From positions 992,001 through 1,056,000 of the forward strand of contig KV748209.1 of assembly GCA_001692895.1 (NCBI GenBank): DNA of 64,000 nucleotides, given 5' to 3'. A program made the translations under genes and the position numbers. The stretch is from Cenococcum geophilum 1.58 (lineage: Eukaryota; Ascomycota; Dothideomycetes; Gloniales; Gloniaceae). The notes below the pieces were generated by a model that saw only the letters and a program-made list of their open reading frames with translations, had not been told where the DNA came from and did no database searches. This document shows positions 11,080 through 57,435 of the stretch, in pieces (positions within the stretch are counted from its first letter, which is position 1; every line of letters starts with the position of its first letter).

Positions 11080-13189
11080 TATACTTTATTCCGTAATAAA
11101 TATTAAGTTTTAACCTCTGCTTTAGCTAACTTAGGAGTAAATACCTTTACCTTAATTAATATAAAGTACGCTGCAAAACTGGCTGACTTTTTAAATACAC
11201 CCCTTAAAGAACTACCTAAACTAATCCCTATTTGCGGGTATAATGGATAAATAGGGTTACTTATTACAACTATCTTGTAGATCTACCTCCGCGTTAATAG
11301 ATAAAAATAATATAACGTCCCCTTCCTTATTACGGACCTTAGAAGCTATAATATAATCTTAGGGAGAAAATAGCTAGCCTATTTAGGCTTATAGCTTAAT
11401 ATACGGAATAGGCAGCTTATCTAGCCCGAAACTATACCCCTAATGCCTTCCTTTATAAAAGAGATTAGTATTATAATAGAAAACCTTATACGGCTATAGA
11501 TAAACACCGTTTACTAGGCCGATATAATACGTAGGGACTAGGCTTTTAAAAAGGATATATAGCTTAATCCATAACAGATCCGTATACTACGCCGCCCCTA
11601 GACTGCCTATGTTACACTATCCGCACTAAAGACTTAGAAAGTCGGTAGTGGCCTAGCTAAGTCCCTAATAGAGAACTTAGGCCCTACGCAGCTATAAAAA
11701 AAGACTAGGGATATTAGACGACATACTAAACTAATAGATTAGAAGGACAACTTATAGAAAATAGAATATAAGCTAAGGAGGACTATAAACCCTATACCGC
11801 AAAATACGGCCTAAATATCCGTAAAGAAACCCACGGACCTCCCACCAGTTAATATCTGCTGTATTAGCGCTATAGGATTCTACCAGAACCTGGTTTAGCC
11901 TAATACCGTTACCTTTACAACTAGCTTATACGAAATTAATTAAATAATTAAAGAGAAAGAAGCCCTAGCCTAAGAGAAAGGCGAACTTATAGATAAGGAG
12001 CTAGTAGAACAGAAACTGCCCTATTAATACTAGAAATTTAAAGATACCTTCTCCAAAGTAGTGTTTAATATACTTCCGCCTTACCGACCGTATAACTATA
12101 AGATTAAAATTAAGCTAGATAAGGTGGTTACCCTTAGCTATAGCCCCCTCCGATAGTAATCTACTGCCGAATTATAGGCCATAAAGTAGTATCTCATTAA
12201 TAACCTAGATAAGGGCTTTATTAAGCCTAGTTAAGCCCCTTTTAACTTAACCTATTCTCTTTACCAAAAAACCAAATAAAGGACTTTATTTCTGTATCGA
12301 CTACTACAAGCTTAATAATTTAACCCTTAAAGACCGCTACCCACTGCCTTTACTTAATAAGACTTTAGCCCAAATAAGTAGAGCTAAGATCTTTATAAAG
12401 CTTAATATCCGCTAGGCTTTTTACCAAATTAAGATAGACCCTAAATTAGAAGACCTTACTATGTTTCGGACCTATTACGGAATATATAAATATAAAGTAC
12501 TGCCTTTTAGACTAACTAATAGACCGGCTATATACCAACGATAATAAGGAGTAGTCCGCGTGGGCCCAATAGGGATCCGAATCGGACGTTAAGTAATGAA
12601 TTATTATTATATACCAACGATATATAAATAATGTACTATTTAACTACCTTAATAACTTCTATATAGTATACCTAGATAATATTATAATCTACTCTAAAAA
12701 TAAACTAGAATATAAAGAGCATATCTATAAAGTCCTGTAACGGCTTTAGGAAGCTAGCCTCTAAGCTAATATTAAAAGGTTAGAATTTAGTATTAAGCGG
12801 ATAAAGTACTTAGGGTTTATTATTAGTATAAGCGGAATTAAGGCAGACCTAGAAAAGACGGCTATAATTAACTAATAGGTACCCCCAAGGACCGTAAAGG
12901 GGGTGTAGTTATTCTTAGGGTTCTATAACTTCTACTAACGCTTTATTAAGAACTATAGTAGGATTACCCAGCTACTAAGCCTACTTACCTATAAGGACCG
13001 GCCCTTTTACTTTAATACCGTATATAGGCAGGCCTTTAATAAGCTTAAGAAACGACTGGTCTCTGCTCCCTTACTTACCCACTTTAACCTAAAACGGCCC
13101 TTAATACTAGAAACCGATGCCTTAAATGGCGTTATAGCTAGCGTTTACTCTTAAAAGTAGATAGACAGAGAATAGTACCCTATTACTTA
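11080..13189 (+). pseudogene. protease, reverse transcriptase and RNase H start of Gypsy A
   Basis: A degraded protease precedes RT. RT begins near 12060 with the PYN-KIKLD and LDKGFIKPS blocks, then LKDRYPLPLL near 12330 and a YLDN remnant of the YxDD catalytic box near 12668. RNase H starts near 13105 (LETDA). The frame is interrupted by a 64-bp LINE-type tail at 12544 and by element B at 13190, and resumes at 19221. Confidence 0.8.
12544..12607 (+). mobile_element. Severely 5'-truncated LINE/retroposon tail with TSD
   Basis: About 64 bp ending in TTA repeats, flanked by a 15-bp duplication TATATACCAACGATA (12529-12543 and 12608-12622). The RT codons of Gypsy A read straight through once one copy and the insert are removed. 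The core, TAGTCCGCGTGGG and ATCCGAATCGGAC, matches the 3' end of the 29008-30033 retroposon and, with transitions, the 3' end of the LINE at 51651. Long variable TSD, tail and 5' truncation indicate target-primed reverse transcription. Confidence 0.75.
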
Positions 13190-19215: not shown

Positions 19216-20539
19216 GCTTACTATTTGAAGACTATAGTAGATACTAAGCTAAACTACCCAATTTACGATAAAGAAATGCTGGCTATTATCTCTAGCTTTT
19301 AGCACTAGCGAGCCCAACTAGAGGGCACCCCTAAGTCTATCTAGGTAGTTTCTAATTATAAGGCTTTAGAATATTTTATAATAATAAAGGCCCTTATGGC
19401 CTAATAGGCGCGCTAGGCAGATACCCTATCTTAGTTTAACTTCCTAATTATATATAGGCCTAGCGCTACTAACTGTGCGGACGCTCTTATAAGGCGTAAA
19501 TAGGATATAAATAACCAGACAGCCGTAAAGATCTTATTATAGACCTAGGCGCTACTATAACTAGAGCACCTTAACCCCTAAATATGGGCAAAACTAAATA
19601 TAGACTCTTTAAATGCTAAGATATACTCTATTAACTCTATAGAACTAAACCTTATTAATAAACTACTGTAGGTAAACTATACGGCCCCTTCTCTATAGGA
19701 GTACTAAAAAGAGGTAAAGAATGTTTCTAGCCTATAGTCCCTTAAAAGTGGACCGCTTAAGCACTATAAACGGCTAGTGGTAGTAGAGGAACAGAACTTA
19801 CAGACTTAGCTTATTGCTAAAGTATATACCTAGGTCTCTACGGCCCACCCTAAAAAAAATAAAAACCGTAGGATTATTAGCGACCGCTATTACTGGCCCG
19901 GAATAATTATAAATATTAACCACTATATACGGAACTGCAATAACTGCTATAGGTCTATAATTCTATAAGATAAGACCCTAGGATTATTAAAAACCCTCCT
20001 AATACCTAACCGCCCCTAGTAATATATCTCTATAGACTTTTATAAGCTACCTCTAGACCGTAACGGATATAATATAGTTATAATTCTAGTTAACCGCTTT
20101 AGCAAGCGCCTATTCTTAATTCCCTGTTATAAGAATATTAATGCTAAAGAGGCGGCCCAACTATATATTTACTACGTTTACTAAATTTATAGACTACCAG
20201 ACACTATTATATCCGATTATAGGCCGTAGTTTATATTAGCCTTTTAGAATAAGTTTACCTAGATCTTAGGCATTAAGCTAAAGCTTTCTACGGCATATTA
20301 CCTCTAAATAGACGGTTAAACGGAGATTATAAATTAATACTTAGACTAGAAACTTTAGCCTTTTATTAACTACTTCTAGGATAACTAGGCTAAACTATTG
20401 CCCTTAATAGATTACGCCTAAGCGACTCTACCCCATAACTCTACCGGATTTGCCCCTATTTAACTAGAAATGGTTTACCTACCCCATATAAGCTTTAACT
20501 AGGAAAGACTAAAAGGGCCCTAGACTATACGCGAAAAAC
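19216..20539 (+). pseudogene. RNase H and integrase of Gypsy A, continued
   Basis: RNase H resumes with YLKTIVDTKLNYPIYDKEML near 19220. Integrase follows: the zinc-binding region near 19830-19970 (NCNNCYRSI), the ISIDFYKLPL core block near 20030, the FSKRLFLIPCYKN block near 20100, LPDTIISDY near 20200 and TAYYL-IDG near 20300, corresponding to the conserved HPQTDGQ region. The TRIM-like element C interrupts after 20539. Confidence 0.82.
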
Positions 20540-20785
20540 TGTCATGGAAGTGGGCACGAGCTGGAATACAATGTACTAAACAGGGTAGTAATTGAAGAAG
20601 GCTACGTACGCGTAACTATGCGTGGTTAATACAAAGACATTTAGATAAAGAAGATTCTTCGTGTGCCAGGTCGGGTATAAATAGGGGTTATAGGGGAACG
20701 TGCGTAGGTGTCTCGGGACGAACGTAAGCACGGGTCAAGAACGTCAAAACGCGCAGGGACGTGAGAGCGTGTGAGTCCCGTGATA
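20540..20785 (-). repeat. 3' LTR of TRIM C (left)
   Basis: 246 bp, TGTCATGGAAG to CCCGTGATA on the plus strand. Confidence 0.9.
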
Positions 20786-21189
20786 GTACCCCCCCCTTAC
20801 TTCCGAGCTCCTGCAAGGCGTATCGTGTCATATATACCAGAAAAAAACCCAATACGGGAAAAAAAAATTCGTTAGCCTTCTCCGCCCTTCTATGTCCTCC
20901 GTTGCACAGGCTCCTCCAGTTCGGTCCTTCCATATTTAATCGTTAGGCCACTAACTTGTCAGGCCCAAAGCATAGCCCAGCTTCCGTTGCCAGCTACACT
21001 CCTGTCCTTGCCGCTTGGAGACGCATTACTGAAGCTCATACAGTCCCTTTCTCGCTTCTAGCAGCTCTACGGCCTTCCCTTCCTATACTCCAGGTCCCCC
21101 TAAAAAATTACCCCAATTTTTAGTCCAAAATGGGCGTTTTAGGCAGTATTTATCGGCCTAAACGGCAGTATAGTACGGTCAGTATGGTG

Positions 21190-21870
21190 TTCGTGGTCGT
21201 GGTAAAGCATATTCTTAGCAGGTTCTTATCAGTGCGGTGCAGTATTCGTATCATAGGCAGGTTCTTGTCGGTGGCAGTACGGTGCCAGCGCGGGTTCCGT
21301 AGGCATATCGGCACGGGATCTTATCAGATTCAGGTAGCAGTACGGTGCTAGCGACGTGTTCGGGTTCCGTTGGCGAATCGGCACGGAGCTTATCAGTTCA
21401 TGTAGTAGCAGTACGGTGCCAGCGATAGGGTCGTCTCGTAGGCATATCGGCACGAGGCTTNTCGGTTCGGGTAGGTAGCAGTACGATGCAAGCGACGGGT
21501 TCGGGGGTCTAGGGAGCAAGGCTCTACCTAGTCGTGTTCGGGTAGCAGTACGATGCAAGCGATAGGGTCGTAGGCGTATCGGCACGACGGGTTATCGGGG
21601 TCGTTTCGCAGGCGTATCGGCGCGAGGTCTTGTCGGTACGTAGGGCAGTGCGTGCAGGTCGGTAGGACAGTAGTAAGATACCAGCTTCCGTGTTCGTGTT
21701 CGTCATGCAGTAGGATGCGAGCCATCAGGTCAAACCGAGGGGCAGTAACGTGCCTGTTCGTAGTCGGTAGCAGTAGGGTGCAAGCCATCAAGGTCACAGG
21801 CGTATCGGCGCGGTGTCTTGTCGTCGGGTCCGTATGCAAATCGGCGCGGAGACTTATCGTACCAGTTCAG
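21190..21870. repeat. Degenerate tandem repeats inside TRIM C
   Basis: About eight imperfect units built round GTAGGCRWATCGGCACG, a CTTRTCGGTTC block and GTAGCAGTACGGTGC, with an initial period near 68 bp and later truncated units. All frames have few stops, so overlapping open frames appear on both strands. This is a composition effect and I do not call a protein. One undetermined base at 21461. Confidence 0.8.
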
Positions 21871-21999
21871 AACCCCAGCGTCCCAGTCTACCCGCAGCCA
21901 GCAGCTCCTGTATCTACCCTTGTATTAGGCGTAGAAAGGCATACTCCGCGACCAGTAGCCCACAGGCCCGCCAGGTATAGAAAAGGGATCCAAATGTAG

Positions 22000-22248
22000 T
22001 GTCACGGAAGTGGGCACGAGCTGGAATACAATGTACTAAACAGGGTAGTAATTAAAGAAGGCTACGTACGCGTAACTATGCGTGGTTAATACAAAGACAT
22101 TTGGATAAAGAAGAAGATTCTTTATGTGCCAGGTTAGGTATAAATAGGGGTTGTAGGGGAACGTGCGTAGGTGTCTCGGGACGAACGTAAGCACGGGTCA
22201 AGAACGTCAAAACGCGCAGGGACGTGAGAGCGTGTGAGTCCCGTGACA
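22000..22248 (-). repeat. 5' LTR of TRIM C (right)
   Basis: 249 bp, TGTCACGGAAG to CCCGTGACA on the plus strand. The minus-strand sequence after it, CTACATTTGGATCCC, is the candidate primer-binding site. Confidence 0.9.
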
Positions 22249-22253
22249 AAAAC

Positions 22254-22726
22254 TATCTTATAAGAAAGCCTAGCAGTACGCTAAGCGCTTAGAAGAAGCC
22301 TAGAAAGTAGCCTATATAAACCAAAAAAAGGCCTAGAAATTAATAGAATAGTAGGCGAATAAGTATAGGCGTGAGCCTAACTTTACTATAGGCGATATAG
22401 TCTAGGTTATAATAAAGAACTAGAAGATAGAACGGCCTAGCTATAAGCTAAACTATAAAATAGCAGAACCGTATAAGATTCTTAATAAAGTAGGCAACTC
22501 GTACAAAGTTAAGCTCCCAGACTTAATTAAAGTTCACCCTATCTTCTTACCGGATAAGCTATAGAAAGCTATAAATAACCTACTACCTAGATAAAAGAAT
22601 AAACCTCCTCTACTAATTTAAGTTAATGGCGATAATAAATAGGAAATTAAAGAAATACTAGCCTGTAAACTTATAAAGGGAATGTTAAAGTATTGTATTA
22701 GTTGGAAAGGATATAACCTAAACCCC
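22254..22726 (+). pseudogene. Integrase C-terminus and chromodomain of Gypsy A
   Basis: Pol resumes with LSYKKA. The integrase C-terminal block GPYKILNKVGNSYKVKLPD-like sequence is near 22465-22530, then the chromodomain EIKEILACKLIKGMLKY-ISWKGY near 22645-22710. It is cut after NLNP by element E (TSD ACCCC) and ends at 39466-39620. The chromodomain places A among chromoviruses, which are known to target heterochromatin. Confidence 0.82.
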
Positions 22727-28990: not shown

Positions 28991-29007
28991 TATATAATAA
29001 TATAAGA

Positions 29008-30033
29008 GGCCGTCAAAAACGGATTCTGCACCTGTACGTGGTGACGGCTACAAACCTAGGTCTTCGAAGTTCAGACCCAGAGCCAACGCAGAGACGTTGC
29101 ACAGCGCGTGCAAGTAGGACCTAGTGGTTGTGTGCGTCATGGGGCGTAGTAAAAAGTTTTCATATAGGATGGTGAGATCTCGAAAACTACTACTAACAGT
29201 ACCCCTTTATAATATAGCCACTAGTTCTCCTACTAAGCACCTATATAATCCAACGTGGATAAATAGCTTTTAAAAGCATCCCCTAGCCCCTAATAGAAAG
29301 CATTAACGACCTTATATTGACGGATAAACGGGCATATAAGCGAACGAACGAACGAGCAAATATACGGCCCCTCCTAACCCTTAAGGCAGTCGCCCGCGGA
29401 GCATACGGTTACTCGCCGTTTTCAACTACCAAATACTATCTAGCAGCTTGGATTACGACCCACGGTTTTCCCTGTCTCCTTTTAATGGAGTGGTAACCCT
29501 TAGAGAGGGCCTAGCTGGGGCCTAGGCATAAAAGATACCCAAATACAACATAATATCCCGCTCGCTTATTAGTATTACGGTAGTTAGAACGGATGAATCC
29601 CCTTTACGCCTTTAATAGCTCTAGGGGGGGGGGAGGCAAGGCGTATATGGCAGTGGTCTATATAAGAGATAGCATATAGGGGATGGGCAAGATATGGGAC
29701 ATAAAGAGATAATAAGACACAGCAATTGATTAGTAAGGCCTAGCTGGGATATAGTAAACCCTAGCTTTAATAAGCTAGAGAAGGAAGCAGTGGTTCCTAA
29801 GGAGTTTAAAACATCTAAGGAGGAGGACGTGCAGTAGGCCTATAGGGCCGCTGCTATGTGCAAACATGGCAAATCGGGGTTTTTTATCCTACTGAGGCTG
29901 CTTATAGGGTTTTTCCTCCCCCAACTGCAGGGTTTTCTTTATGTAAATTATAAGTTTTCCCCCCTGTGACGGAGTAGTCTGCGTGGGCTAAGATAGGATC
30001 CGTATTAGACGTTAATTAAAGAACTACTACTAC
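29008..30033 (+). mobile_element. Non-coding ~1-kb retroposon, copy 1
   Basis: 1026 bp flanked by a 13-bp duplication TAATAATATAAGA (28995-29007 and 30034-30046). It starts GGCCGTCAAAAACGG and ends GAA followed by CTA repeats. Element G pol sequence rejoins across it and the E/F homologues lack it. No ORF or known domain. The last ~65 bp match the 3' end of the LINE at 51651 and the 64-bp tail at 12544. A second copy lies at 40801-41843. TGGTGACGG and GTTCAGACC near 29038-29077 vaguely resemble pol III A and B boxes; this is weak. Confidence 0.78.
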
Positions 30034-30049
30034 TAATAATATAAGATGC

Positions 30050-34120: not shown

Positions 34121-36120
34121 TTAATTTTTATATATATCTATCTATAGGTCTTCTAGCTATGCTTTTAGAATTCTTTATATCTAAAAGCTTTCTGGTGTTT
34201 TATAGACTCTTTTTAGTTTATTATTCTCTTAAGTTACTACTAGTTTAGGGTAGTTGTATTTAATCCATCTATCCTCGTCTCTACGTAGCATTGCTCCTAA
34301 TAGTCTTTTATTGTTCTGTAATTTAGCTTTTCTGCTAAATGCGTCTGCCCTTACGTTTTTAGTTCCCTTAGTATGCTAAATTTTAAAATAGTATTCTATA
34401 AGTATCTCCGCCTATCTAACCTATCTTTAATTAAGTTCTTTTGTTATTAGGAACCCCATTAGGTTCTTATAATCCGTTTTAACTATAAATAGCTTCTCCA
34501 CGCCTTGTAAGAATTCTCTCTATTTCTTTAGTGCTGCGACTATACCTAATAACTCCTTATTATAGACGTTATAGTTTAGCTCTAGTAGTGTTATCTTCCT
34601 ACTATAATATAATACTGGATGCTATGCGTCCTTATACTTCTATAGTAAGTATACTCCTAGTATATAGTCTAATGCATCTATTTTTATAACCGTGTCTAGT
34701 CCTAGTTAGTAGATTTTAAGGATTAGCTCTTGGGTAAATAACTCCTTAAGTTCCTTAAACAACTTCTTTTGCTTATCCCCCTATACCTATAGTTCCTCTT
34801 TCTTTATAAGCTTAGTAAATAGTTTAATATTCTTTAACCATTATATTATAAACCTTCTATAGTAGTTGCAAAACCCTAAAAATAACCTTAACTATATTAC
34901 ATTTTCTGGTTCTTACTAATTTACAATAGCTTTGATTTTCTTTAGGTCTATACTAATATAACCTAGTTTAATAATAAATCTAATGAAATTGGTCTTCCTT
35001 ATAAAGAACTTGTATTTCTTAATTGCTACTAGTATCTATTCCTCTTATAGTCTCTTTAAAACCCATTTAACGTATTCCCTGTGTTCTTCCTTAGTTATTA
35101 AGTAGATAATAATATTATTAAGGTATGCTATAACAAACTTATTAAGGTGTTCTCCTAATACACTGTTAATTCTTTTCTAAAACGTTACGGGTGCGTTTAT
35201 TAACCTAAATTGCATAACTAATAGTTTATATAGTCCTTTTCTTAACCTAAAGGCTGCTTTCTATTCGTCGCCTTCTTTAATTCTAATCTAATAATATACC
35301 TACCTCAGATCCATCTTTATAAAGATTTATACGTTACCTATCCAATCTTAGATTTCGCTAATTAGGGGTAAAAGATATCGATCTTTTTAAATGATGCTAT
35401 TTAACTGTTTGTAGTTAATATATAGTCTAAGTTTTCTGTTCTTCTTTAGTACGAATAATACCGGGTAGCCTGCTAATAACTGCGATGGTTTAATATATCC
35501 CTTTTATAAGTTTTTTTTAGATAAACTCCTTAAGTGCTCTGGACTCCTCTTAAGTAAGCTTATAGGTTAGAAAGAACCTTAGACTTATTCCTAGTTCTAA
35601 CTCTATCTTATAGTTTTATACTATATAATCTACCAGCTTTTTACTTTCTAGGCTCTATAGTTTCTTACTATACTTATGGTATCTCTTTAGTATATAACTT
35701 AAGCCTCGCTTAGTCTCTTTATATATTACTCCGACTTAGTACTATACTAACTTAGTTTGCTATTATATTTTATATTATTAAGTATTTCTAATATTAACCT
35801 GCCCTATAATCCAATTAATCCTTAGGTTATATTCCTATAACTAAGGTATTCCTAATACTGCCTTATCCCGTCCTAATAGTAGGATGTTAAAAGATATCTC
35901 TATTTATCTTCCTTTAATGGTTATCTAAATAGGTCCTATTTTAAGATTAATAATCTCTCCTCTATAGGCTATTAGGTCTCCTAAAATTATAACTAATAGG
36001 TAAGGTTGCTCCTTCTGTCTATAAGGTAATCCTATTCTCTTAACTACTGCTAGTAAAATATGGTTTTATATTGCTTTACTATCTATTAGCGCTTTAAACT
36101 GTTAATCTTACTATTTTACT
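34121..36120 (-). pseudogene. RNase H, reverse transcriptase and protease relic of Gypsy E
   Basis: On the minus strand the RNase H block FIVKTDYKNLMGFLI lies near 34440-34490, RT at about 34700-35560 and protease at about 35800-36120. Sequence and order mirror element G. Confidence 0.75.
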
Positions 36121-38998
36121 TATAAATTTAGGTATCGTCCTTGAATTCCTTTAAGGGTTTAAGGCTTTACTACTAGCTCCTTTAGGTCCTATGGGCCTCT
36201 ACTTTTCCTAACTATTGGCTATTTAATCCTATTGCATTTAGCTTATTCTTTAGCTAATGCCTAGTTCGTTTTTTTATCCTTAATATACTATAGACACGTA
36301 TTCTCTAAACATTCCTACTACTATTGTCCGTCTAAGTATTCTTCCGTAAGGAATCTTCCTAGTTAAAGTATTAGGTCTCCTAACTTCTAAACTTCCGTTA
36401 AATGCTATCTATATATATATCTAGTATTCCTATATTATCGCTTCTCTGGCGCCTAATATATCCTTATAGGGTATTTCCAATTCTTTTCTTTTGGGTTTTT
36501 GTGTATCTTGTATATATTATCCACGTATATAATCTATAATAGCGTATAGTGCGCTAGGTGCTTTAGGTTAACTCTTAACTTATCTTTATCCTTAAGTTTA
36601 AACCTTTANNNNNNNNNNNNNNNNNNNNNNNNNNNNNNNNNNNGTACNAAGANGCGTCTNTNNCTTCTCTAGTCCTCTAATTATTNCTCTANATCNTTTA
36701 ACGTTATAATTAAGGCTCCTTTAATATAAGTTATAGCCTTTTCTATAATTAAGTGGTCCTAGATAACTCGTTTATCTAACTATATATAAAAATCTTCCTA
36801 CTTATTATTATGTCGTTGCCTATACTACTTTTAGTATAGCTGTTAGAGTATATACGGTTTATCCGTAAGGAAGTATCTTCTTATTACTATATTATAATAG
36901 CTTTTTATATATCGTTCCTTAAACCTAGTAGGGATCCCTAAATTCTCTTTATTTTCTAGTTCGGTAAGCTATTTAGCTCTTAGTGTGCCTACCCTAGGCC
37001 TATTAGTAATTCTTTATATAGGTTCTCTGTCCCTTATACGTCCTAGTATACTAAATCTCTTATCTAGTTTCTGTTCTTACTATGCAATAATTTTTTGTCT
37101 AAATTCTTCTATGGTTTCTTTTGGTTTACGTCTTGTAAATAGATCCTTAAAGTTATCTTACTTTTTAATCTTAGTATTGGTATTCTAATCCTGTTGCTAA
37201 GCCTTGCTTGCGATTTCTTTAACGGTCCTTATTCTGTTATTAAAATCTTAGTTCTATAGGATTCTTAATCCTAAGCTTGCTTCTATTTTAAGCTTTACTC
37301 CAGCCTTAGTCTAATTAGGCTTCTTTAGTGTTCTTATCTTGTCTTAAGAGTCTTGTGTCTTTAGGAAACTTTATCCTAAGCTTATTTATATATTGCTAAA
37401 CTAAGCTATTACTCTACTTTATTAGTTATTATCTATTATAGGTCCTTAAGCTTGCCTTATCTTATCTTAAGAGTCTTAGGTTTTTAGCCTTTTGCCTTTA
37501 TTAAGTGCTAAAGTAGTTTACTATCCTTCTTCTCTTACGTCTTGTAAAGTAATAGATATCGTGTCTAGTAGGGTCTTGATCCCTACTAATGTTCCTTATT
37601 CTATAGCGGAATTATCCTCTACCTCTATTATAACATCTTTAAGGTCTATATGCTCCTAGTAAGCTGCTTTTATTACCTTATTATTACTAAATGTTTTACT
37701 TATATTAAATTTATTATCCTTAATATCCGATTTATAAACTAGTTTATTAGTTCCTCTAAACTTTAATAATTTTTAGCTCTTATGGCTAATAGCTTGCGCT
37801 ATACTTAGCATCTTTATAAATTTGGTATGCGTTATTATAACAAAACGCGAAACTCCTAATTAAACATTCTTTTATTCCTTGCAGTATATTATTGTCCCTT
37901 TATACGTATATATCGTCTGCTAGTCTTATTCCTTTTACTATATAGTAATTCTAACTACTTCTATAGTCTTTAACGTAATAACCCTATTTTCCGCAATTTA
38001 TGTAAGCTCCTTCTTTAAACTATTTTTTTTGCTATAGAGTCCGCCTGAACGTCTTCTGCTATTAAGATCCCTAGTTTAGCCTTTGCTCTTTAGACCTTTA
38101 ATTACTTAATCCTTGTCCTCTAGGTTTCTATAATTTCTTATTCCACTTTTTAGATTCTTTAGTACTACTTAGGTCTATTAGCTTTGCGCTATACTATAGT
38201 TTTTAACTTTATTATTACGTGCCCTACGCCTCATATAACTGTAGAACTCTATTCTAACCCTTCTTAGTCTGCTCTCTTTGGTAGATCCTATTATTAATTT
38301 TAATTACTTAATTAATTAAATCCCTAAGAGTATCCGTATCTTCTATTAGGATAATTACGTCCTAGACTTTTACTTTAAGTCCTTGCTTATACTGTGCTAT
38401 AAGCGCTTTATCGTTCTATTTAACTTATATTGCTAACGTTTAAAATCATATCGTGTACTTAATTACTAAAGTTCTTTATATTAGGTTTTAGAGCTTTTTT
38501 TCTACCATAGTGGTTACTTCTAGGTCTCTAAATATTTGCGTTAATTATTCTATAAACCCGTTTTAACTTAAGAATATATACTATACCTCCTAGTTAGTGG
38601 TTGTTATACTGTGTTCCTATACCTCCGTAAGGTAAGATTTAAACTACTTAAGTGCCCTTCTCATTAAGAATAATTCTGCGTAAGTGACTTAATCTATAGG
38701 CGTTTCTAGCTTTACTCCTTTCTGTATAACCTTAAAGTGTATTTATATAAGGAATCCCTTAAGCTTTAACTTCTCTCCTAAGAATTGCTTAATTAAGGGT
38801 AACTTAACCTTAGCTGCTCCGATTCCATTAATCCTTTCTTTAAATATCCTATTATTATTTATTAATTAATTAACCATTTCTTGTAGTTGTTTAATAGTAA
38901 CTAGTTGCGAGTCAGTATCTACTATACTGGTGTTATTACCTGTCCTTAAGGTAGTCGCCGCTATAGACGCCGTTGTGGCTGCTACTTTTAGTGGCATA
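36121..38998 (-). pseudogene. gag and linker region of Gypsy E
   Basis: Gag starts with ATG at 38998 on the minus strand (MPLK). The zinc knuckle relic GAYINCGKIGYY lies at about 37975-38022. The linker mirrors 26900-28650 of G. A run of undetermined bases at 36609-36643 and scattered N to 36696 mark poor assembly. Confidence 0.68.
36609..36696. other. Assembly gap and low-quality bases
   Basis: 35 consecutive N followed by scattered N. The gap falls in the linker region of element E; the homologous part of element G (about 28080-28170) shows no extra gene there. Confidence 0.95.
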
Positions 38999-51650: not shown

Positions 51651-51735
51651 TAATAATAATAATAATTTATTCTATTTATTGCCCGATTTAGTCCTTTACT
51701 AAGTCTATATAGGCTTCTACCTTCTATTTACAGGA
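51651..51735 (-). repeat. LINE 3' end shared with the non-coding retroposons
   Basis: On the minus strand, about 45 bp before the TTA tail align without gaps with the last bases of the retroposon at 12544. Over 27 bases around ACTAAATCGGGC against TCCGAATCGGAC all differences but one are transitions. Upstream of this the sequences diverge. Confidence 0.65.
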
Positions 51736-51999
51736 AAAATCCCTATAGGGGAAAAACCTAGGTGTGTTCTTTTAGCTAGTCTTTTACGCTCCGCCTGTGC
51801 CTAGCCTGTTTACCTTTATTATATGTCTACCTTTTATACTATACTTCTAAGGTGTCTTAGAAGGTTTAGGGGGTAGTAGAAGGGTTTAGTAAGTTGCCTA
51901 TAAGCCACCTTCGGCTTAGCGGGAGGTCTAGTCTCTAAGGGGCTAAAAGGGGACGTATCCTTCCATATCCTTCTATTAGATCTTATACGCTATCTAGAA

Positions 52000-54900
52000 C
52001 TACTAGAGAACTCCTTAACCTATAAACTATTATACTGCTGCTTATAGGCCCCTACTTATAAATAGCATTTAGGTAATATTATTTATGCCCGCCCTAGTAA
52101 ATAGCTGGTCTTTTACCGTATAGTAGGTATAGAACAGTATTATATAGCGTACTAACTATATAGGCCATCTGTATGTGTAGTGTAGAATAGTATTTAGGAT
52201 ATAGATGCTTACTAGCTATGCGTTTAGTTCTAAAACCTCTATTCGTAATAGAAAAGCGACTGTAGATTCTGCCTTTATCTATTCTTCGTATAGGGGGAGA
52301 GTTAGTATTATCTATAGGATGCTCTATATAGTTCCCCTTTGCGCCTTCGCCGCCTTCTTCTAGCGTTATTTCTACTTATTATTTACCTATCTTGCGATGT
52401 ATATAGTAGATCTCCACTTATACTAGTGGCCCCCTATCCTCTATTATTGTCGCGGTACTCTACTAGCGTAGCACCGGATCTTCGCTTAGTGCTATAGTAG
52501 CTCTTATATTTTCTATTCTCTCTCTACCGCTTATAGGCGGAGGGCTTTTTGACTTATAAGCTTGGGCGCGGTGCCCCTTTAGGGGGCCCTCGCTCCTTAT
52601 ATACGCTCTACTATCTAGCGTATCTCCTTCTCTACTAGGTGGCCTTATACTATAGATGCCCTCTATATAGCCGTTGCTTCTATATATACGTCTAATAGCG
52701 GTACTATTACTTCGCGTTCTATTACGGCACGTAGTATCCTTTTATAAGCCCCTATAATTCTATATAAGCATTAGTTTTATAGCTTCTCTAGTGGTGCTAG
52801 GGAGCTTTTTACTAATAGTTTGCTGTTTAGCTTTATGCCCTAGATCTAGGTACTATATAGTATTACTAGCCTTATCACTACTATATATAGTAGTCGTATG
52901 CGTCTAAATAAGGGTCCTTAGGTTAATGCTATAATTTATAATACCGTTATAAATACCGCTGCTCCCCTATAAGTCGCCTGTGTAATATATACGTTCTAGT
53001 TTAGCTTAGCGTCTACCTAAACTTCTAAGACCTTAAGGGTGGCTTCTAGTTTTGCTTCGCAGCCCTATATATTTACTGTTAATACTAGGTTATTAGTTGC
53101 CCTTCTTTTCCTTATAAAGTAGATAAGCTAGTATTTATCTAGTGCAAATTTAATGCTATGTTGCTTTGCCTATATAATATACCTATTGTGTACCTAGTTT
53201 AGCCTTATACAGTTTTTTGCTGCTATATCTCCCTATATAATTAGGTTTATATTATCTATAAATTTTAAAGCTACTATTTCTTAGTTGTTATTAAATGTCT
53301 CTAGTAGCTTAGATATAAATAAAAGGAATAGGATTGGTAATAAGGGTAATCCTTAGGAGATACCTGTTGGTGTTAGTATTGTATTACTTCTATAGCCCTT
53401 AAATACTATTTTAGTAGTACGTCCTGTAAGAAAGGCTTAAGTAAAGTTAACTATTTAGTTTGGTAGGCCCTTCTTTTATAAAATCTATAGGAGTCTCTTA
53501 TATAATACGTGGTTAAAGGCTCTACTTATATCTAGGCTTAGTATAGATACTACGCAGCCTAGGTGGGCTTGCTACGCTGCCTAGACGCTTAAGGTAATTA
53601 GGGAGAGGGCTAAAAGGGTTAACCGTTTCTTTCTTGCGCCTATTTACGTCTATAGTAGTAAACCTTACTTCTCTACGGCTTCTTATATGCGTTCTACTAC
53701 TATTTTTTCTAGGAGCTTTCCTAACGTATTTTTAAGGGCGACTAGTTAATAGCTTTCTAGGAGGGAGTAGTCCTTTTTATTTACCTTTCTTAGGATAACT
53801 ATAATTATTTCTTTATAGTATTTTAGTAGCTTACCTTTAAGGAGGCAGATTGTTACCATATTAGCTAGTAGTACTATTACCGCTTCTAATACGGCTTTAA
53901 TTGCCTTATTTAGGATCCTATCTAGCCCTACCACTTTGCTTATAGGGAGTTTTTATATCGCATCCTTTATTTCCTTTAAGGAGACTATTTAGCTTATCTT
54001 TAGCGGTTAGAGGTAGTCCTAACTGCTAATATCCTATAGGTCTGCTTAGCATATATTAGGGAAGAACCTCTCTACTAGTATTTTTATTTTATTCCCTATT
54101 ATTGTTTATATACTAATTTTATTCTATTTAGCGGAGTATAGGTAAATAGGGGTCTTTTAACGTTTCTCCTGCAGCTCTTTTATACCACTTAGATATACGC
54201 TAGAGGCCCTAATTATATAGTTTAGTGGGGTCTAAGGTAATTTCCTTTAGGAATTAGCGCTAGCTGCTTCTATTCTCCTTCTATATTATCTTCTTAAGCC
54301 TATTCTTTAGGGCCTTATAGCTCTAATAGTAGTAGGCCTCGCTTATTACGCTGTATTATCGCCTTACCCTTCTTATACCTATAAGTAGCTATACCGCCTC
54401 TAGCGACTATTCTCGCTAGGCGTGTTTATAAGGCTAGGCTTTTAAGTAGTACTCTTCTAAGCAGTTGCTTATAATCCTCTAGATATTCTCTAATATTGCC
54501 TCTAGTATTATTACTAGTCTATTAGTAATTTCCTGGAAGTATTTTTCTTAATTAAGTTTATATATAGCGTATCTCTAGCGCGTCTATTATACTAGGGCGT
54601 TAATATTAAGGGATATCCGTATAGGTATATGGTTTACAGTTAGTGCCTATATATTTTCTAGCCCGTAGAACGCTAGCTAGTTTGTAAGTGCTTCTTACAT
54701 AAATATTAGGTTAATTATACTCTCTTAGGTCCCTCTTTTCTATATAGGTTTGCTAGTTAGGATAGTTAGGGCAAGGCCTCGCGTTTCTAGTTCGTTAAGT
54801 AGGTAAGTTGCCTATACTTTTACTATAGCCCACTATCCTCTCTATACCGTATAGTGTGTATTAAAGTCCCCTAGGACTATTATCTCTCCTTTTGCTATAT

Positions 54901-55106
54901 TAATAGTATATTATAGTAGTCCCTATATAGTTATCTAGGGCCTATTATCTTTTAGATTATAGATGTTAATTATACTATTTTGGCCCCTATCTATAGCTAT
55001 TTATAGTTTGGCTATATTAGGGCTAATAGTATAATAGCTCTACGCCTATATATTAATGTATTGGCTAATTAAGAAGTATATATAAGTAGCTAGGTCTAGT
55101 TTATAT
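52000..55106 (-). pseudogene. LINE ORF2 relic: endonuclease C-half and reverse transcriptase
   Basis: On the minus strand, the endonuclease block VLGDFNTHYTV lies near 54840-54900 (GDFN-H motif of AP-type endonucleases). RT follows: VGLDRILNKAIKAVLEAV at 53930-53880, ISQGLPLLPILFLLF near 53330-53365, and FIDNINLI near 53235-53260 where the active site should read F-x-D-D, so one catalytic Asp is now Asn. A C-terminal region extends to about 52000. Stops replace Trp and Gln codons. Confidence 0.75.
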
Positions 55107-55318
55107 AGTAGTGTTATAGAAGTAAGCACGAGCTGGAATACAATATACTAAACGGGGTAGTAATTAAAGAAGGCTAGGTACGCGTAACTATGCGTAGTTA
55201 ATACAAAGACATTTAGATAAAGAAGAAGAGTCTTTATATGCTAGGTACGGGTATAAATAGGAGTTATAGGGGAACGTGCGTAGGTGTCTTGGGACGAACG
55301 TAAGTATGGGTTAAGAAC

Positions 55319-55562
55319 TGTCACGGAAGTAGGCACAAGCTGGAATACAATGTACTAAACAGGGTAGTAATTAAAGAAGGCTACGTACGCGTAACTATGC
55401 GTAGTTAATATAAAGACATTTAGATGCAGAAATAGAACAGGTTAGGTACGGGTATAAATAGGGGTTGTAAGGGAATATGTGTAGGTGTCTTGGGACGAAC
55501 GTAAGCACGGGTTAAGAATGTTAAAATGCGCAGAGACGTGAGAGCGTATAAGTCCCGTAATA
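55319..55562 (-). repeat. 3' LTR of TRIM D (left)
   Basis: 244 bp, TGTCACGGAAG to CCCGTAATA on the plus strand. Confidence 0.88.
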
Positions 55563-55929
55563 GTACCCCCCCCTTACTTCCGAGCTCCTGTAAGGCGTGT
55601 CGTATATACTAAAAAAACCCAATACGGGAAAAAAAATTCGTTAGCCCTTCTCTACCCTTCTACGTCCTCCGTTATATAGGTTCCTCTAGCTCGGTCCTTC
55701 TATATTTAATTATTAGGCTACTAACTTATTAGGCCTAAAGCATAGCCCAGCTTCTATCGCTAGCTATACTCCTATTCTCGCCGCTTAGAGACGTATTGCT
55801 AAAGCTTATATAGTCCCTTTCTCGCTTCTAGCAGCTCTACAGCCTTCCCTTCCTATACTCTAGGTCCCCCTAAAAAATTACCCCAATTTTGGTCCAAAAT
55901 AGGCGTTTTAGGCAGTATTTATTGGCCTA

Positions 55930-56960
55930 AACGGCCGTATAGTACGGTGTTTATAGTCGTGGTAAGGCATATTCTTGGTAGGTTCTTATTAGTGCGGTAT
56001 AGTATTTGTATCATAGGCAGGTTCTTATCGGTGGTAGTATAGTGCCAGCGCAGGTTCCGTAGGCATATCGGCACGGGATCTTATCAGATTTAGGTAGTAG
56101 TATAGTGCTAGCGACGTGTTTAGGTTCCGTAGGCGAATCGGCACAAAGCTTATTAGTTTATGTGGTAGCAGTATAGTACTAGTAATAGGTTCAGGTTCCG
56201 TAGGCAAATCGGCACAGAGCTTATTAGTTTATATAGTAGCAGTACGGTGCTAGCGACGGGTCGTCTTGTAGGCGTATTGGTATAAGGCTTGTCGGTTTAG
56301 GCAGCAGTACAATATAAGCGATGGGTTTGGGGGTCTAGGGAGCGAGGCTCTACCTAGTCGTATTCGGCTTGTAGGCGTATTGGCACGAGGCTTATTAGTT
56401 TAGGTAGCAGAACGATGCAAGCGACGGGCGGCTTAAGATAGTCTGGGTATCGGATGCGAATGGCTTCAGCGGCGGCAGTATAATGCTAGCGACAGGTTCG
56501 GGCGGCTTAAGATAATTCGGGTATTAGATGCAGAGAGCTTCGGCGGCAGGTTCGGACGGTAGCAGTACGGTGCCAGTGACGGGTCGTCTCGTAGGTATAT
56601 CGGCACGAGGCTTGTCGGTTCGGGCAGCAGTATAATGTAAGCAATAGGGTTCGGGGGTCTAGGGAGCAAAGCTCTACCTAGTCATGTTTGGGTCAGGTCG
56701 TAGGCTTATCGGCATAATAGGTTATTAGGTTTGTTTCGCAGGCATATTGGCGCGAGGTCTTGTTAGTACGTAGGGCAGTACGTGCAGGTCGGTAGGATAG
56801 TAGTAAGATACCAGCTTCCGTGTTTATGTTCGTGTTCGTTATATAATAGGATGCGAGCCATTAGGTTAAACCGAGGGGCAGTAACGTGCCTATTTATAAG
56901 TGGTAGTAGTAGGATGCAAGCCATTAAGGTTGCAGGCGTATCGGCGCGATGTTTTATCGG
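55930..56960. repeat. Degenerate tandem repeats inside TRIM D
   Basis: About a dozen imperfect units with GGCRWATCGGCACR, CTTRTYRGTTYRGG and GCAGTAYRGTGC blocks. Some units (GGCGGCTTAAGATARTYYGGGTAT near 56429 and 56508) are absent from copy C. Open frames of 60-67 codons arise from the repeats. Confidence 0.75.
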
Positions 56961-57138
56961 TAGGTTATAATTCCACAGGCGTATCGGCGTGGTGTCTTGT
57001 CGTACTAGTTTAGAACCCTAGCGTCCTAGTCTACCCACAGCTAGTAGCTCCTGTATCTACCCCATAGGCGTAGAAAGGCATGCTCTGCGACTAGTAGCCT
57101 ACAGGCCCGCTAGGTATAGAAAAGGGATCTAAATATAG

Positions 57139-57382
57139 TGTTATAGAAGTAGGCATGAGCTGGAATACAATGTACTAAACAGGGTAGTAATTAAAGAAGG
57201 CTACGTACGCGTAACTATGCGTAGTTAATATAAAGACATTTGGATGCAGAAACAGAACAGGTTAGGTACGGGTATAAATAGGGGTTATAGGGGAACGTGC
57301 GTAGGTGTCTCGGGACGAACGTAAGCACGGGTCAAGAACGTCAAAACGCGCAGAGACGTAAGAGCGTGTAAGTCCCGTAACA
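57139..57382 (-). repeat. 5' LTR of TRIM D (right)
   Basis: 244 bp, TGTTATAGAAG to CCCGTAACA on the plus strand. Confidence 0.88.
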
Positions 57383-57435
57383 AGAACGTTAAAACGCGCA
57401 GGGACATGAGAATGTGTAAGTCCCGTAACAAGTAG

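Follow-up and report, generated by a model that had tools for sequence, protein, structure and literature searches.

A LINE-tailed non-coding retroposon family of Cenococcum geophilum with a candidate HDV-like ribozyme at its 5′ end

The window analysed here is a stretch of 64,000 nucleotides from contig KV748209.1 of Cenococcum geophilum 1.58. It carries one copy of a discrete retroposon family, referred to as family A, whose parts are listed in Table 1. The copy sits within a RIP-damaged repeat. A related repeat in the same window is unbroken at the matching place and has the target sequence only once; the family A copy is thus an insertion. The 1026-bp insert described in the original prediction, with its GGCCGTC start, CTA tail and 13-bp TSD, is present in the window sequence in every one of these respects. 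The absence of an ORF was claimed there as well, and in the RIP-corrected family A consensus the longest stop-free stretches indeed reach only 117 codons (minus strand) and 72 codons (plus strand), with no obvious coding capacity. Elsewhere in the window, two related repeat clusters (20466-22289 and 55038-57423; families D1, D2, D9 and D10) lie in GC-richer stretches.

Table 1. Features of the family A copy and of related elements in the window. Positions are those of the window; nt numbers count from base 1 of the element.
Feature	Position	Strand	Remarks
Family A retroposon, whole	29008..30033	+	1026 bp
Left TSD, TAATAATATAAGA	28995..29007	+	13 bp
Right TSD, TAATAATATAAGA	30034..30046	+	13 bp
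Candidate HDV-like self-cleaving ribozyme, nt 1-86	29008..29093	+	predicted cleavage between 29007 and 29008
P1, 5′ strand GGCCGTC	29008..29014	+	pairs with 29043-29049 GACGGCT; nt 1-7/36-42, one G-U
P2, 5′ strand TTCTGC	29024..29029	+	pairs with 29088-29093 GCAGAG; nt 17-22/81-86
P3 ACC/GGT with loop L3 TGTACGT	29030..29042	+
P1.1 GT/AC	L3 GT 29034-29035 with AC 29050-29051	+
P4 hairpin	29056..29080	+	29056-29062 CTAGGTC with 29074-29080 GACCCAG, one A-C mismatch
J4/2 CCAA	29083..29086	+	first C is the putative catalytic C; then one extra C before P2′
Family A body, no obvious coding capacity	29106..29782	+	indels and transversions between subfamilies
LINE-derived 3′ part, two blocks collinear with LINE-B 3′ UTR	29783..30023	+
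Terminal hairpin GTCTG...TAGAC	29977..30010	+	alignable across four groups of LINEs and retroposons; putative recognition by RT
(CTA)n tail	30024..30033	+
Related repeat without insert (paralogous empty site)	about 35520..36233	-	same window
66-bp stub, LINE-B type 3′ end alone	12544..12609	+	TSD TATACCAACGATA at 12531-12543 and 12610-12622, 13 bp
LINE-W, RIP-damaged LINE	51652..55000	-	3′ end at 51652; upper limit approximate

The own-genome DNA search proposed with the original prediction was carried out with family A on the assembly (177 Mb, 162 contigs). It gave 862 first-look candidates, of which 40 were scored. Each of the 40 alignments begins at base 1-2 and reaches base 1022-1026, and identity is 90-94% apart from the window copy itself. 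A degenerate 28-nt pattern built on the 3′ end found 307 matches in the genome, and its reversed control found 0. Family A has hundreds of copies dispersed over many contigs, and a second subfamily (~80%) was found beside one copy.

From the fetched loci 61 distinct 5′ ends were collected, and in 55 of them the 3′ end was recognised as well. Six copies (L046 at 3181, L057, L050, L008 at 382, L060 and L052) lacked a recognisable 3′ motif and were omitted from the TSD count, the first of these being cut by the locus end. TSDs of 12-18 bp abut base 1 in 54 of the 55 two-ended copies (47 exact, 7 with one mismatch), a count which is silent on the frequency of 5′ truncation since the loci were chosen by best score; the sole exception, L043, has no TSD. 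The TSD sequences vary between copies, and 41 of them begin with TA; the element itself opens with G in 53 copies and with A in the other 2. The ends are discrete and a tail repeat is present. Tails differ among copies and subfamilies, with (CTA)n, (TTA)n and TCTCTCTC seen in L031 (C65:680876-681902), L045 and L041, and the repeat unit of the tail seems to vary from one source copy to another.

Compared with their majority sequence, 30 main-subfamily copies show 1262 transitions and 7 transversions. For RIP correction, C or G was restored wherever it is kept in at least 10% of the copies (45 sites). After this correction the C-to-T change amounts to 34% at CpA, 12.5% at CpG, 2.5% at CpT and 0.7% at CpC, a CpA-biased pattern which we take to be the signature of RIP. 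The main-subfamily copies differ almost solely by transitions in this context.

At the 3′ end, the original prediction aligned the last ~65 bp of the element with a LINE end at 51651-51735, here LINE-W, and held the rest to be unrelated to the LINE. With the microsatellite tail included, the score of this alignment was reached by 0 of 500 shuffles under transition-tolerant scoring and by 6 of 500 under standard scoring; without the tail the numbers were 7 and 51 of 500. When RIP-corrected family A was compared with a second LINE copy, 4 of 500 shuffles reached the score in the transition-tolerant mode and 497 of 500 in the standard one. Taken by itself, the alignment with the LINE-W end is weak. 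It becomes convincing through two intermediates, LINE-B and LINE-C, together with a hairpin alignment over all four groups.

LINE-B was first met as two minus-strand copies in locus L063 plus the stub at 12544-12609 of the window, and the family gave 1425-1548 first-look candidates, of which 40 and 150 were scored. L067, the copy with the least damage, is flanked by its own TSDs and has a few stops and a frame change; pieces of it match PF14529/PF03372 and PF00078, and it has EN and RT domains. LINE-C is the little-damaged LINE of L063. Family A matches the LINE-B 3′ UTR in two collinear blocks, nt 773-801 (93%) and nt 961-1022 (81%), which keep their order and nearly their spacing and extend over 250 nt in family A and 236 nt in LINE-B. 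When the 129 nt that precede the tail were aligned by standard scoring, with 1000 shuffles each, the comparison with LINE-B scored 60 (reached by 0 shuffles) and that with LINE-C scored 26 (reached by 1), while two LINE-W copies scored 21 and 23 (24 and 8 shuffles) through a short T-rich word only. A 3′ end is common, in other words, to family A and an EN/RT-coding LINE of the same genome. The proposal of a non-autonomous retroposon sharing its 3′ end with a LINE is supported, the closest LINE seen being LINE-B (L067, L030) with a shared span of ~250 nt; LINE-W, whose best standard local match is that short T-rich word, was dropped as partner in favour of LINE-B. The lack of relation to the LINE stood for nt 1-772 and failed for nt 773-1022, where the two LINE-B blocks lie.

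Before nt 773, family A has no match to LINE-B, L063 or LINE-W beyond short chance words. This bears on the reading of the locus as truncated or rearranged LINE fragments that form no family. Short LINE stubs do occur, as at 12544-12609 of the window; however, besides the head without a LINE match, the 40 scored and the 55 two-ended family A copies start at one position, and a 5′ continuation into LINE ORF2, which the original prediction had named as the sign of a mere LINE fragment, is seen in none of the 55. The discrete family claimed there is borne out, 29008-30033 is one copy of it, and the fragment explanation is refuted, with virtually no probability left to it.

Some further observations concern the LINEs themselves. 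The stub at 12544-12609 is an extreme 5′-truncated TPRT product, inserted in a region which reads by eye like a Gypsy-type RT. We take the LINEs to be Tad1-like and this region to be Gypsy-like, labels given by eye. When the final 1.35 kb at the LINE-W 3′ end was searched, 7 of the 41 matches started at query base 235 (window 52766, minus strand), and in L062 the same 1.1-kb 3′ piece sits within another LINE-W copy with the TSD TAATAATAGCTAGGATA; the recurrent start may mark a place where 5′ truncation recurs, or else another short family derived from this LINE. A 15-bp repeat may be the TSD of the LINE-C copy (L063/L066), but the left flank there resembles another repeat. Among the PF14529 matches listed, those without an internal stop are 3 of 3 on contig C101 (L063, L066, L067) and 6 of 147 elsewhere; C101 (329 kb) may escape RIP or hold young insertions.

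The terminal hairpin was aligned over LINE-B, LINE-C, LINE-W and family A, the alignment of LINE-W with family A resting on the LINE-B and LINE-C intermediates. The outer stem reads GTCCG/CGGAC in LINE-B, GTCTG/CAGAC in family A, GCCTG/CGGGC in LINE-C and GCCTA/CGGGC in LINE-W, with U-A/C-G exchanges at two of its pairs. Pairs were counted in 13 hand-picked sequences (4 of family A, 4 of LINE-B plus the stub, 1 of LINE-C, 3 of LINE-W): 92.2% of 116 cells are paired, against 18-65% when the pairs are slid. Ten cells are doubly changed compared with 3.2 in shuffles, and none of 500 shuffles reached 10. The number of doubly changed pairs (3) was reached by 153 of 500 shuffles and is not above chance; the number of pair types was reached by 484 of 500.

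Tailed SINEs share a 3′ UTR hairpin with stringent LINEs and carry a microsatellite tail. Family A is like them in both hairpin and tail, but its head has neither an A box nor an Rfam small-RNA match. The original prediction had suggested a check for A and B boxes and for a tRNA, 5S or 7SL head, and this came out negative. No A box was found in the scan of the family A consensus, and the only B-box-like match lies at nt 794, within the LINE-derived part. Homology to tRNA, 5S or 7SL, examined through Rfam for the window element and four loci, gave no match. T-runs of four or more occur at eight places along the element. Internal A and B boxes and a small-RNA-derived head, the strict marks of a SINE, are therefore not those of family A, and the box results together with the T-runs make a pol III SINE unlikely. 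A conventional SINE, its head taken from a small RNA gene and its pol III promoter internal, would be in keeping with the LINE tail, which SINEs commonly share, and the available text of PMC5063351 reports SINEs of tRNA and 5S type from a fungus. With the promoter results, the Rfam result and the length of ~1 kb all against it, this explanation is disfavoured and very unlikely. Judged from its sequence, family A is probably a LINE-dependent retroposon without a promoter that cuts itself from read-through transcripts.

The candidate for such cutting lies at the 5′ end. The GGCCGTC start given in the original prediction stood, and the HDV-like fit found at that end was absent from it. The sequence of nt 1-86 fits a self-cleaving ribozyme of the HDV-like kind, whose predicted cut falls exactly before base 1. 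Hallmarks of HDV-like ribozymes are a U in L3 with a G five bases on, and a J4/2 of the form C-N-R-A immediately before P2′. The L3 U/G and the J4/2 CCAA are present in family A, yet one extra C precedes P2′. P4 is perfect in the RIP-corrected sequence (CTGGGTC/GACCCAG), and the nested double pseudoknot of P1, P1.1, P2, P3 and P4 is found in the RIP-corrected consensus and in 25 of the 61 copies. For comparison, the accessible part of PMC3774820 gives the R2 ribozyme 6-7 bp in P1 and no fewer than 5 in P2, with a P4 that varies, a C for catalysis and few bases that are fixed.

A strict descriptor requiring P1, P1.1, P2, P3, L3 and J4/2, written after the element sequence was seen, gave a single match in 127,760 window positions, at 29008 on the plus strand. 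In 567,404 positions of the fetched loci it gave 27 matches, 26 at base 1 of an element and one in an overlapping register at the same site; as the loci partly overlap and the window copy is included, these represent 25 distinct copies of 61. Dinucleotide shuffles of the first 120 nt of family A matched at base 1 in 2 of 300,000 cases, and in 8 with one P1 mismatch. The copies are mostly RIP-damaged, and the 25 of 61 that pass the strict descriptor rise to 30 when one P1 mismatch is allowed. Of the 36 failing copies, 28 have at least a P1.1 defect, mostly through G-to-A in L3, which fits RIP; a RIP-type change at one base of the proposed P1.1 occurs in 31 of the 61.

In the 61 aligned copies, 94.6% of 1512 cells of the ribozyme pairs are paired, against 31-41% when the pairs are slid. 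The rate of transversions plus indels in 55 aligned full copies is 0.6-0.9% in nt 1-100 and 8.4% in nt 101-150. In the same 55 copies nt 351-400 (window about 29358-29407) show 0.0% transversion/indel cells, the only 50-nt window lower than nt 1-100, and RNAalifold windows across the body give other possible hairpins. Covariation in the ribozyme pairs is modest (score 0.111 versus 0.099 in shuffles), and the number of doubly changed pairs was reached by 28 of 500 shuffles. That covariation barely exceeds the shuffles is due in part to RIP, the source of most of the variation, and RIP alone can convert a G-C pair to A-U. The clearest exchange of another kind is in L053 and L059, where pair 5-38 changes from G-C to C-G, but pair 3-40 is lost in the same register.

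Rfam, searched at E up to 10 with the window element and loci L041, L046, L053 and L020, gave no HDV match. The energy fold of nt 1-103 was no better than shuffles (z 0.57, pseudoknots being unscored), and over part of P1 the RNAalifold consensus favours a different pairing. A hairpin CAACG/CGTTG at nt 77-92, preferred by MFE, was set aside as the functional fold because a T-to-C change at nt 91 breaks it in some copies. The conserved 5′ 100 nt could be regarded as a DNA-level promoter or some other RNA structure, the HDV-like match being fortuitous, a reading to which the blank Rfam result and the weak covariation lend weight. In trypanosomatids, Pr77 serves as promoter and ribozyme alike (PMC4035085, in the text available), so that conservation alone does not prove catalysis. 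However, the descriptor is specific in scans and shuffles, and the predicted cut coincides exactly with base 1 of the element; a fortuitous match is in our view distinctly unlikely.

The origin of the putative ribozyme head was considered with regard to the LINEs. Family A may be an internally deleted LINE that was once ribozyme-headed, as are R2 SIDEs and NARTc, its middle replaced or drifted since. Its 3′ part is LINE-derived, and the known ribozyme-headed short elements compared here are of this type (PMC3414825, PMC4035085, as far as their accessible text goes). Against such a descent, L067 has neither a descriptor match nor a match to family A before nt 773, with the limit that it is the single two-ended LINE-B copy seen and may lack some 5′ bases; L061-L066 have no descriptor match either, few LINE 5′ ends being covered in all. 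We consider descent from a deleted LINE unlikely. About an even chance is given to a ribozyme recruited independently of the LINE, in an element with no promoter of its own that relies on host read-through, cuts itself at base 1 and borrows the LINE enzyme.

Family A is thus read, with good though not full confidence, as a non-coding retroposon which would be mobilised by a LINE via the 3′ hairpin and whose HDV-like head would free its RNA from read-through transcripts. The discrete family with its exact 5′ end and TSDs, the LINE 3′ blocks, the hairpin with its compensatory changes, and the HDV-like sequence and topology at base 1 are counted as shown. That LINE-B mobilises family A, that its RNA cuts itself and that it relies on read-through all go beyond this sequence anatomy and are inferred by analogy with R2, SIDEs and L1Tc/NARTc. 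In the proposed course of events, family A would be transcribed within a longer RNA begun at an outside promoter, and the ribozyme in its 5′ ~86 nt would cut this RNA exactly before base 1. New copies would in this way share their first base without an internal pol III promoter. The RT and endonuclease of a Tad1-like LINE would recognise the shared 3′ hairpin and start copying at the hairpin and tail, the LINE tail on family A being what is proposed to enable the LINE enzyme to copy its RNA. Insertion would follow by target-primed reverse transcription.

Retroelements with an HDV-like ribozyme at the 5′ end are known from animals and trypanosomatids. The plan of a ribozyme head with a LINE tail is already known, on the available text of the papers concerned, from the SIDEs of Drosophila (PMC3414825) and from trypanosomatids (PMC4035085). 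R2 SIDEs and R2/R1 hybrid SIDEs are likewise non-autonomous, with a 5′ ribozyme and a LINE 3′ end, and in the hybrid form an R2 ribozyme is joined to the 3′ end of another LINE, R1, with 14-bp TSDs (PMC3414825). As described there, SIDEs are rare, reside in rRNA gene loci and are built from R2/R1, whereas family A is dispersed in hundreds of copies of ~1 kb with a body of ~675 nt. Both ends of a SIDE come from known LINEs; in family A the 3′ end is of LINE-B type, but the 5′ end was not found on the fetched LINE stretches, which include few LINE 5′ ends. NARTc, RIME and SIDER of trypanosomatids are likewise short and LINE-related, with a conserved 77-nt 5′ hallmark that is an HDV-like ribozyme (PMC4035085). 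According to the same source this hallmark is common to the autonomous L1Tc/ingi LINEs, whereas the family A head was not found on L067; the likeness noted here is one of plan.

The variant HDV ribozymes of fungi likewise have an HDV-type double pseudoknot and, in the text available (PMC5640933), an additional nucleotide, mostly C, between P2 and P3, to which the extra C of family A may correspond. Their cleavage-site pair is typically C-G and their P4 is partly loop E, while family A has a G-U pair and a plain P4 hairpin and is set apart by this description. These variants number 230 examples from 26 species and differ widely in the genes they are associated with. Previous searches by descriptor had overlooked them too, and the words retrotransposon and transposable are absent from the main text of that paper as available (PMC5640933). 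Among the matches listed in the open literature there is no report of a ribozyme-headed SINE-like element of a fungus, nor one joining the plan of ribozyme head and LINE tail with fungal HDV-like ribozymes; within these bounds, that junction is what is new here.

The hairpin alignment, which takes in family A as well as LINE-B, LINE-C and LINE-W, makes recognition of RNA by the RT of these fungal LINEs testable. Family A would be a clean case of a ribozyme head and a LINE tail with possibly different histories, and as a ribozyme-headed retroposon of high copy number with a LINE tail it would provide the fungal HDV variants with a mobile-element context. If the ribozyme was recruited independently of the LINE, some of those variants that are unexplained may be the heads of such elements, and RIP would destroy the helper LINE and the ribozyme alike.
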